Source: Pedobacter sp. HDW13 (GTDB lineage: Bacteria > Bacteroidota > Bacteroidia > Sphingobacteriales > Sphingobacteriaceae). From it: a stretch of 64,000 nucleotides of DNA. Below the pieces are notes generated by a model that did no database searches, was not told where the DNA came from, and saw only the letters and a list, made by a program, of their open reading frames with translations. Of this stretch, positions 55,901 to 58,750 are shown in pieces. Each line of letters starts with the position of its first letter. Position 1 is the stretch's first letter. The stretch spans positions 2,542,001 to 2,606,000 of the forward strand of contig NZ_CP049868.1 of assembly GCF_011303555.1 (NCBI RefSeq), in the 5' to 3' direction. The translations under genes and the position numbers were made by a program.

Positions 55901-56344
55901 ATGTACAATATCTTAAAATCTGCGCACTCCGGATGGCGCTACATCGTATTAATTTTATTGGTTATCGCGGTAATAAATGCATTATCGGGCTGGTTTGGGA
56001 ATAAAACATACACAGAAGGTAACCGCAAACTAAATGTATTTACTTTGATTAGTGCACATATCCAATTGTTGATTGGCTTGGTGTTGTACTTTTTAAGCCC
56101 TTTAACAAAATTGCCAATGAGCGAGGCTGTTGGAAGGTATTTTAAAGCAGAGCATACTGCTATGATGATTATTGCAATCATTTTGATTACGGTAGGTAAT
56201 GCCAGATCGAAAAAAGTAGCAGACTCTGTTGCCAAACACCGCACCATTGCTGTGTTTTTCAGTTTGGCCCTGATTCTGATTATTGTGGCTATTTTATTGA
56301 TGGTTAAAGCAGTTCCCGGAAGATCGTTTTTTGGAGTTTCTTAA
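55901..56344 (+). CDS. Four-TM membrane protein, cytochrome b-like arrangement
   Basis: A 147-residue protein with four hydrophobic segments. Conserved-looking histidines occur near membrane faces: H9 and W12 in SAHSGWRYI, H52 in LISAHIQLLIG, H85 in KAEHTAMM and H111 in AKHRTI. The spacing resembles small heme- or quinone-binding membrane proteins, but I cannot name the family. Homologues in Bacteroidota are usually annotated as hypothetical. It is probably monocistronic and ends in a terminator. Confidence 0.75.
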   Translation: MYNILKSAHSGWRYIVLILLVIAVINALSGWFGNKTYTEGNRKLNVFTLISAHIQLLIGLVLYFLSPLTKLPMSEAVGRYFKAEHTAMMIIAIILITVGNARSKKVADSVAKHRTIAVFFSLALILIIVAILLMVKAVPGRSFFGVS

Positions 56345-56808: not shown

Positions 56809-56816
56809 TATTTTTG
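56809..56816 (+). promoter_or_regulatory. -7 box of the trp operon
   Basis: TATTTTTG matches TAnnTTTG and ends six bases before the leader-peptide ATG, so the leader peptide may be read from a nearly leaderless transcript. No exact -33 TTTG is present. Confidence 0.6.
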
Positions 56817-56822
56817 TGGCTC

Positions 56823-56891
56823 ATGATCAACAATATACACACATGGCTTTGGCAAAGTAATTCGAAAACGGATTGCGCTGGCTGCGTATGA
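56823..56891 (+). CDS. trpL: Tryptophan operon leader peptide
   Basis: A 22-codon frame, MINNIHTWLWQSNSKTDCAG followed by CV and TGA, with Trp at codons 8 and 10 (TGG-CTT-TGG), upstream of trpE. Trp is rare, so two within three codons mark a ribosome-stalling leader: when charged tRNA-Trp is scarce, the ribosome pauses here. The end of the frame (56876-56883) can pair with the 5' arm of the terminator at 56935. Confidence 0.85.
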   Translation: MINNIHTWLWQSNSKTDCAGCV

Positions 56892-56968
56892 AAAAAATAT
56901 AGTTTATCAACCTAAACCTTATTAAAGAACCATTAAAGCCCGGCGTAGAACCACACGCCGGGCTTTTT
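56876..56968 (+). promoter_or_regulatory. trp attenuator (antiterminator and terminator)
   Basis: The terminator is AAAGCCCGGCGT (56935-56946) with ACGCCGGGCTTT (56955-56966), a perfect 12-bp stem with an 8-base loop followed by more T. An alternative partner for the 5' arm is CGCTGGCT (56876-56883), which pairs with AGCC-C-GGCG leaving one bulged C and one G-U. It could form when the ribosome stalls at the Trp codons. A protective 1:2 hairpin is not evident. Trp attenuators of this kind have been described computationally for Bacteroidota (the Bacteroid-trp class). Confidence 0.82.
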
Positions 56969-57032
56969 ATTGTTAAAAAAAATAATTTAACCGTTGTTGC
57001 AATGCACGAAGCAATAACCACACTGTAAAATC

Positions 57033-58430
57033 ATGTATAAAATAAATACAACTTACAAAAAACTACTTGCCGATACCACCACACCAGTAAGCATTTATTT
57101 GCGCCTGCGCGATGTATATCCAAACAGCATTTTACTGGAGAGTTCGGATTATCACAGTCGCGAAAACTCGATGAGTTTTGTATGCGCGGATCCTGTTGCT
57201 GGTATCATTTTAAAAGGTTCACGACTGGAAACCTATTTTCCTGATGGAGTTGTTGAAATTACCGAAAGCAAGAACCTGATTGATGAAATTGCCGATTTTA
57301 AGGATAAGTTTAAAGAAACAGAACTGCCTGAAATCAAATTCATTTCGAGCGGCCTGTTTGGTTATTTTACCTGGAATGCCGTGCAGCATTTTGAAGATAT
57401 CAAATTTGTTTCTGAAACGCCGGAAGGAGAGGAAATCCCCGAAATGCAATATCACCTTTACCGGTATATTATTGCTATCGACCATTTTAAAAATGAAATT
57501 ACCCTTTTCAAAAATACTTTCGAAGGTGAAGAAGAAGGTGGCCTGGAGAAAATGGAATACCTAATCCAGAACAAAAACTATCCCGAATATAAATTTCAGA
57601 CCAGAGGTGAAGAATCTTCAAACCTGACCGATCAGGGTTTTATGGATCTGGTAGAAAAACTGCAAAAACATATTTACCGTGGTGATGTTTTTCAAATTGT
57701 GCCATCACGCGCTTTTAAACAAGCTTTTTCGGGAGATGAATTTAACGTTTACCGTTGCCTGCGTTCTATAAACCCATCGCCTTATTTGTTTTATTTCGAT
57801 TACGGTAATTTCAAGCTTTTTGGCTCGTCGCCAGAAGCACAGATTACCATTAAAAACAATTCTGCTAATATTTTTCCCATTGCCGGTACCTTTAAACGAA
57901 GTGGTAATGACGTTGAAGATGCTGAACAAGCCAGAAAGTTAGAACAAGATCCGAAAGAAAGTGCTGAGCATGTGATGCTGGTTGATTTGGCCCGGAATGA
58001 TTTGAGCAGGCATTGTAACCGGGTAGAGGTAAAATCGTTTAAAGAAGTACAATACTATTCGCACCTGATCCATTTGGTAAGCAAGGTTAGCGGTCATTTG
58101 CAGGAAAACGTAAGTGCCTTTAAGGTGGTGGCCGATACTTACCCTGCGGGTACGCTAAGTGGAGCGCCGAAATATAAAGCCATGCAGTTGATCGATGAAA
58201 ATGAAAAGCTTGGCCGTAATTTCTACGCCGGCGCAATTGGCTTTATGGGCTTTAACGAAGATTTTAACCATGCGATCATGATCAGGACTTTCATGAGTAA
58301 GAATAACGAACTGCATTACCGGGCAGGAGCAGGTATTGTGGCCGATTCGGTACCTGAAACCGAAATGCAGGAAGTAAACAATAAAATTGCCGCATTGCGT
58401 AAAGCAATAGAGATGGCAGTGAGTATTTAG
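57033..58430 (+). CDS. trpE: Anthranilate synthase component I TrpE
   Basis: A 465-residue chorismate-utilising enzyme; with TrpG glutamine amidotransferase it makes anthranilate. The N-terminal segment SILLESSDYHSRENSMSF carries the LLES element associated with Trp feedback binding. The catalytic core includes VFQIVPSRAFKQAF, LFGSSPEAQ, FPIAGTFKRSG and ASTYPAGTLSGAPK-type text (VADTYPAGTLSGAPKYKAM). It is the first structural gene after the attenuator. The feedback element and the attenuator together argue for a dedicated tryptophan role rather than isochorismate synthesis. Confidence 0.95.
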   Translation: MYKINTTYKKLLADTTTPVSIYLRLRDVYPNSILLESSDYHSRENSMSFVCADPVAGIILKGSRLETYFPDGVVEITESKNLIDEIADFKDKFKETELPEIKFISSGLFGYFTWNAVQHFEDIKFVSETPEGEEIPEMQYHLYRYIIAIDHFKNEITLFKNTFEGEEEGGLEKMEYLIQNKNYPEYKFQTRGEESSNLTDQGFMDLVEKLQKHIYRGDVFQIVPSRAFKQAFSGDEFNVYRCLRSINPSPYLFYFDYGNFKLFGSSPEAQITIKNNSANIFPIAGTFKRSGNDVEDAEQARKLEQDPKESAEHVMLVDLARNDLSRHCNRVEVKSFKEVQYYSHLIHLVSKVSGHLQENVSAFKVVADTYPAGTLSGAPKYKAMQLIDENEKLGRNFYAGAIGFMGFNEDFNHAIMIRTFMSKNNELHYRAGAGIVADSVPETEMQEVNNKIAALRKAIEMAVSI

Positions 58431-58441
58431 CCAGGGCAAAA

Positions 58442-58750
58442 ATGATAGATTCGCCAGAAAGCTGTAAAGATATAAATGAAATCCGGTCTGCTATTGATGC
58501 TATCGACCAGCAGGTTATTCAATTGATCGGGGAAAGATTTAAATATGTAAAAGCAGCTTCAAAATTTAAAGTAAACGAAGAGGCTGTTAAAGCTCCCGAA
58601 AGATTTAAAAATATGCTTTTACAAAGACGGGATTGGGCGGATGCAGCTGGTTTGAACCCCGATATTATTGAAAAAGTATACAGAGATCTGGTAAACTATT
58701 TTATCAGTGAGGAAATAAAAAATTGGAATATTGAAAATGGAAACAAATAA
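58442..58750 (+). CDS. PchB-like chorismate mutase / isochorismate pyruvate lyase
   Basis: A 102-residue all-helical AroQ-fold protein. The text RSAIDAIDQQVIQLIGERFK, YVKAASKFKVNEEAVKAPER and RRDWADAAGLN closely resembles Pseudomonas PchB, which splits isochorismate into salicylate and pyruvate and has weak chorismate mutase activity. The conserved Arg and Lys of the active site appear to be present. It sits between trpE (11 bases) and trpG (overlap of 14 bases), so it is made with anthranilate synthase. Whether it acts as a mutase for Phe/Tyr or as a lyase cannot be settled here. Confidence 0.88.
   Translation: MIDSPESCKDINEIRSAIDAIDQQVIQLIGERFKYVKAASKFKVNEEAVKAPERFKNMLLQRRDWADAAGLNPDIIEKVYRDLVNYFISEEIKNWNIENGNK

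Follow-up and report, generated by a model that had tools for sequence, protein, structure and literature searches.

The window analysed here is a stretch of 64,000 nucleotides of the Pedobacter sp. HDW13 genome (6.4 Mb), and the region under study precedes trpE, the first gene of its operon (Table 1). The closest relatives of this trpE are in other Pedobacter, with no more than 98% protein identity. The gene order is trpE, a chorismate mutase/isochorismate lyase-like gene, trpG and trpC, the last two assigned by family matches. The gene in the gap between trpE and trpG (58442–58750) scores 135.7 bits against the NCBIfam isochorismate lyase model (cut-off 126) and is kin to chorismate mutase. 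On the 5' side of the leader, a same-strand gene encoding 147 amino acids ends at 56344. The putative terminator ends 66 nt before the start of trpE.

Table 1. Features of the trpE leader region, with positions given in the window; promoter and pairing assignments are predictions
Feature	Position	Strand	Description
Putative -7 promoter box TATTTTTG (TAnnTTTG)	56809–56816	+	From sequence; box-ATG gap 6 nt
Leader peptide ORF	56823–56891	+	22 codons and stop; ATG 56823, TGA 56889–56891; MINNIHTWLWQSNSKTDCAGCV
Outer protector stem, 5' side	56824–56836	+	Leader start, including U and G of AUG; pairs with 56897–56909; fold and swap test
Region 1, inner protector stem	56842–56864	+	Trp codons plus the bases after them; partner 56869–56890; swap test
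Regulatory Trp codons 8 and 10	56844–56852 (56844–56846, 56850–56852)	+	TGG CTT TGG
Region 2, antiterminator 5' arm UGCGCUGGCU	56874–56883	+	Within last codons of leader ORF; covariation at 56879
Outer protector stem, 3' side AUAUAGUUUAUCA	56897–56909	+	In spacer; conserved in alignments A1, A2 and A3
Conserved unpaired spacer stretch ACCTAAACC	56910–56918	+	Alignment A2 across Pedobacter; similar in Olivibacter and Sphingobacterium
Regions 3:4, intrinsic terminator	56935–56966	+	Arms 56935–56946 and 56955–56966, perfect 12-bp stem; loop 56947–56954; then TTATT
trpE	57033–58430	+	First gene of operon; NCBIfam TIGR00564, E = 4e-124

The original prediction for this site was a ribosome-mediated attenuator with a 22-codon leader frame and tandem Trp codons at positions 8 and 10. 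The frame and both Trp codons are present, but the codons are not adjacent: a Leu codon separates them, giving a WxW motif. The leader was compared with the regions upstream of trpE at 79 loci from relatives, for a total of 80 leaders including that of the window. The set covers Pedobacter, Mucilaginibacter, Desertivirga, Olivibacter, Sphingobacterium, Solitalea, one Flavobacterium and one metagenome-assembled genome of the Cyclobacteriaceae. All 79 loci of the relatives have a short, Trp-containing leader 5' of trpE. Trp codons 8 and 10 are invariant columns in alignment A1, and other genera have WxW, WW or WWW. A strict test required an ATG-initiated ORF of 8–40 amino acids with WW or WxW in the region upstream of trpE; 78 of the 80 real regions pass, compared to 1.5% of 4000 dinucleotide shuffles. 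When a TAnnTTTG box 3–9 nt 5' of the ATG is also required, 70 of the 80 real regions pass, compared to 0.025% of those shuffled. The two leaders that fail the strict test still contain Trp codons – L040 has a GTG start and L069 has two Trp codons that are widely separated. A TTG at 56814 in the window, in frame and giving the ORF a third Trp codon, was considered as an alternative start and discarded: it overlaps with the promoter box, precedes the predicted transcription start and would add a TGG that relatives do not conserve.

The perfect 12-bp stem proposed as the terminator stands out clearly from background (-22 kcal/mol, z = -5.6, with none of 200 shuffles as good). Its T tract is short, TTATT following a UUU that belongs to the stem. 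The competing pairing, originally placed at 56876–56883, is borne out and is longer: 56874–56883 pairs with 56937–56947 with one bulge, giving a duplex of -14.8 kcal/mol (z = -3.4). Over the 80 leaders this 2:3 pairing has a mean z of -2.6. Pairings were also compared between species by a swap test, in which the pairing energy of each leader's own partners is set against the energy after partners are exchanged between species. The test is conservative, because the swapped partners from relatives resemble the leader's own partner. Region 2 pairs better with its own terminator 5' arm than with swapped arms, both in 34 representatives (p < 1e-4) and in 19 leaders from outside Pedobacter (own -12.3, swapped -9.4, p < 1e-4).

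Covariation, suggested at the outset as a check on the stems, is found in both the terminator and the 2:3 pairing. Among 49 leaders, half of the predicted terminator pairs (5 of 10) show two-sided changes in one or more sequences, with covariation at 56942–56959 and 56943–56958. Three leaders (L029, L031, L074) have a three-way change, in which the base at 56879 becomes A, the G at 56942 becomes T and the C at 56959 becomes A; pairing is thereby preserved in both the antiterminator and the terminator. These three may reflect one shared event. Several terminators of clade B (L032, L033, L034, L049, L051, L054) have an A-C mismatch whose 5'-arm A remains paired with region 2, as though that base were constrained more by the antiterminator than by the terminator.

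The 1:2 protector hairpin had been described as weak or missing, and on the window sequence alone it is weak: the leader folded without the terminator is predicted to form a single long hairpin, which is not significant (z = -1.3, 22 of 200 shuffles as good). In the window the base at 56840 is C, which breaks one protector pair; most relatives have U at this position. Within the single sequence, plain duplex pairing of the leader with region 2 also gave no signal (1:2 z = -0.45 in the window), a result that is overturned by whole-leader folding and by the comparison between species. The pairing of the Trp region with region 2 is maintained in the 34 representatives (p < 1e-4) and in the 19 leaders from outside Pedobacter (own -12.4, swapped -10.4, p < 1e-4), as is the pairing of the leader start with the spacer (p = 1e-4; own -5.9, swapped -4.5, p = 3e-4). 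A positive result for the leader start with the region 2 segment (p < 1e-4, 19 leaders from outside Pedobacter) is expected, since this segment extends into the protector's 3' side. In the same 19 leaders, four control pairings outside the model gave p values of 0.18–0.96. The hairpin is rebuilt with different sequence in divergent genera (L070, L071, L083); the outer stem of L070 (Olivibacter) and L071 (Mucilaginibacter) forms a perfect 9–10 bp helix that includes bases of the start codon.

Within Pedobacter the protector varies little, so the support for it comes from the tests between genera. In two Pedobacter alignments it is mostly invariant or changed on one side only, and pair counts in clade A found no protector covariation beyond that of shuffles, with clade B slightly better. 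RNAalifold applied to 49 leaders together recovered only the terminator, because ORF lengths differ and the alignment is poor. From sequence comparison, the protector hairpin is judged to exist and to extend to the start codon. The conserved stretch ACCTAAACC that follows it lies outside the terminator, antiterminator and protector, and is possibly a pause or binding site.

A leader start with almost no 5' UTR had also been suggested, and a consensus -7 box directly before the ATG supports this as a prediction. In Flavobacterium johnsoniae, the G of the -7 box is at -5, followed by 4–5 nt to the start site (PMC6847099). By this rule, transcription in the window is predicted to start at ca. 56821, leaving a 5' UTR of ca. 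2 nt. Among leaders with a perfect box, the gap between box and ATG is 3–9 nt in 72 of 73 and exactly 6 nt in 48 of 73, from which 5' UTRs of ca. 0–5 nt are predicted. Published surveys show that transcripts with such short 5' UTRs are few in Bacteroidota: 87% of F. johnsoniae leaders are longer than 10 nt (PMC6847099), 3.7% of 5' UTRs in Bacteroides thetaiotaomicron are shorter than 10 nt (PMC7366714), and 5.5% of Flavobacterium psychrophilum mRNAs are leaderless (PMC9723704).

The leader combines a cognate-codon ORF, an intrinsic terminator, an antiterminator that uses the 5' arm of the terminator, and a 1:2 protector. In the mechanism proposed, RNA polymerase would start ca. 2 nt 5' of the leader AUG and a ribosome would load close to the beginning of the RNA. 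When Trp-tRNA is ample, this ribosome would reach the stop codon at 56889 and cover region 2, or would depart and allow the protector to re-form; with region 2 occupied, the terminator would form and transcription would end. With scarce Trp-tRNA, a ribosome stalled at codons 8–10 would hold open the arms of the protector at the leader start and Trp codons, and region 2 would be free to pair with 56937–56947, blocking the terminator and allowing trpE to be transcribed. If no ribosome loaded in time, the protector would shut over the AUG and region 2, and transcription would terminate.

Typical ribosome footprint sizes were used to examine the geometry of the leader. Region 2 begins 13–27 nt past the last Trp codon, and its end in the window lies immediately 5' of the leader stop codon. 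This geometry fits the mechanism, with region 2 beyond a ribosome stalled at the Trp codons and within reach of one terminating at the stop codon. In clade B of Pedobacter (e.g. L032), 19 nt separate the end of region 2 from the end of the stop codon; a ribosome at the stop codon would cover region 2 only in part, and in this clade the protector would have to do more.

The classical layout of ribosome-mediated attenuation that was originally proposed is conserved, in that relatives keep the Trp codons, the terminator and the antiterminator, and the transcription start predicted from the -7 box lies upstream of the leader frame. We put the probability of ribosome-mediated transcription attenuation at the trpE operon, with a near-leaderless start and in a Sphingobacteriaceae form, at ca. 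0.9. The basis for this reading is sequence and its comparison – the ORF, the Trp codons, the promoter spacing, the terminator and the maintained pairings – and we infer where transcription starts, where ribosomes are positioned, in what order the RNA folds and how it responds to Trp. Also counted in favor of attenuation is that pheA, ilvD, thrA and trpD in this genome each have a cognate-codon leader with a terminator after it.

The start codon itself may be a working part of the switch. Under this tentative proposal, which we regard as possible rather than probable, the near-leaderless AUG would be caught in the protector unless a ribosome loaded before 56897–56909 was transcribed, and the leader would sense both Trp-tRNA and the rate of Shine-Dalgarno-independent initiation. 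If so, each transcript would have one chance of translation.

Two other accounts accept attenuation and differ in its details. In one, the transcript begins further upstream, which would give the leader ORF a 5' UTR of usual length and make the near-leaderless start only apparent. The 5' end is indeed predicted from the box, several leaders of the Flavobacterium type have boxes 16–20 nt 5' of the ATG, and among control boxes before other genes at the same loci 21 of 56 are also within 9 nt of an ATG, so that in this small and redundant sample box position alone is no proof. The leader start remains a prediction because these controls are less clear-cut. Nevertheless, the length of the gap is fixed at 5–9 nt in nearly all Sphingobacteriaceae while its bases vary freely, and we consider an upstream start unlikely. 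In the other account there is no functional protector, so that the antiterminator forms by default without translation and termination needs only a ribosome over region 2 at the stop codon. The position of region 2 immediately 5' of the stop codon in the window would suit this, as would the weak fold of the window leader, but the swap tests for both protector stems are significant where the controls are not, and the rebuilding of the hairpin in L070, L071 and L083 also argues for a protector that is functional. We regard its absence as improbable.

The remaining accounts would do away with attenuation by a translated leader, and both appear very unlikely. If the operon were controlled by an RNA that binds a protein or tRNA, such as TRAP or a T-box, or by a DNA-binding repressor, the leader ORF would be incidental. 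Profile searches found no match anywhere in the genome to TRAP (PF02081) or TrpR (PF01371), an Rfam search found no T-box in the leader region, and the Trp-containing ORF is conserved in every relative; nothing was found in favor of such control. The hairpin could instead be a mere terminator for a transcript from upstream. The 147-amino-acid gene is on the same strand, and no other terminator-like site is found between its end and 56935. However, a promoter box and the leader ORF intervene between that gene and the hairpin, and the 5' arm of the hairpin shows covariation with a segment of that ORF, region 2.

Several other amino acid biosynthesis genes in the genome are preceded by similar candidate leaders. 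A second Trp leader, MIIKNLNNNWWWHNEIR, lies with a terminator 5' of trpD-trpF (L001:1521–1574; G000:C1 ca. 4,617,140), and 28 of the 30 Pedobacter loci examined have a Trp leader 5' of trpD. The trp pathway is split in this genome, each half with a separate putative attenuator. Upstream of pheA (L106:2722–2784) there is a Phe/Tyr leader, MKNFNTYYFGYFYYFSESRG, with a terminator and a 2:3 pairing of -19.7 kcal/mol (z = -6.7); upstream of ilvD (L105:2200–2277) there is an Ile/Val-rich leader, MNLNTNIISNIIIVISQQRGGYRCV, with a terminator and a 2:3 pairing with z = -3.4; and upstream of thrA (L103, minus strand, ca. 2187–2122) there is a Thr/Ile leader, MKFNTSIITTIIITTGINQRG, with a strong terminator and a 2:3 pairing with z = -2.4. 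In each of these three leaders the codons are cognate, and the 2:3 pairing lies close to the end of the ORF. The His-rich leader upstream of hisG, MNLTLNHHLHLHHRR (L098, minus strand, ca. 2235–2188), has a weak hairpin and a T run, and a search for a 2:3 pairing there found none. The idea that all leaders of the genome are near-leaderless was dropped, as box spacing gives 5' UTRs of ca. 8–15 nt for trpD, ilvD and pheA.

A class of trp leaders in Bacteroidota, Bacteroid-trp (Rfam RF01692), was described by Weinberg et al. 2010 (PMC2864571). Comparison with its covariance model had been proposed for this leader, and the model does not match it, either at E ≤ 5 in the window or at E ≤ 10 genome-wide. 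RF00513 (Trp_leader) had no match at E ≤ 5 in the window, and 12 weak matches to Rfam at a permissive threshold in the leader region were all below gathering cut-offs, did not include Bacteroid-trp and were judged to be chance. With membership of the RF01692 class set at a score of at least 49 bits, the trpD leader is below threshold (41.3 bits), while the Flavobacterium trpE leader L083 is a member (78.8 bits). In a phylum-wide sample, RF01692 was found in 13 of 148 Bacteroidota genomes, all of one family, and many of the matched leaders have a 5' UTR of 12–16 nt by the same box rule. In the RF01692 consensus, the Trp codons are bracketed by the protector hairpin and the 5' arm of the terminator lies at the end of the model; both this class and the leader in the window have a Trp-rich ORF 5' of trp genes in Bacteroidota. 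The leader in the window is thus Bacteroid-trp-like in its layout and proposed function, but not in its score with the covariance model. By testing pairings across genera, these results document in detail trp attenuation in the Sphingobacteriaceae that is missed by the Rfam model, in a phylum without Shine-Dalgarno use. A near-leaderless, Trp-sensing ORF could be a compact natural reporter for initiation in Bacteroidota with almost no 5' UTR, and the same ORF could report on the coupling of transcription and translation.

The trpL leader of E. coli encodes a peptide with two Trp codons and forms mutually exclusive 1:2, 2:3 and 3:4 pairings. The layout of two Trp codons and alternative pairings is common to trpL and the Pedobacter leader, but in Pedobacter region 2 is inside the ORF, the protector is predicted to extend to the start codon, there is no TrpR, and the host, unlike E. 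coli, belongs to the Bacteroidota, without Shine-Dalgarno use. The Trp attenuator of Sinorhizobium meliloti (trpL/rnTrpL), an Alphaproteobacterium, is an RNA beginning directly with the start codon (ATG) of its leader ORF, giving a leaderless leader peptide (PMC7298713). It is likened to the Pedobacter leader by layout, not by sequence comparison; the Pedobacter RNA is instead predicted to begin 0–5 nt before the ATG and to have a paired start codon. The F. psychrophilum transcriptome gave clues for leader-peptide attenuation of amino acid operons, with structured regions 5' of pheA and hisG among them; the main text of that paper does not include trp, and its passages found on such leaders describe neither the pairings nor a near-leaderless start (PMC9723704). 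As far as the main texts of the open-access literature searched show, the Sphingobacteriaceae form of the trp attenuator, its conserved near-leaderless start and a protector that reaches the start codon are new.
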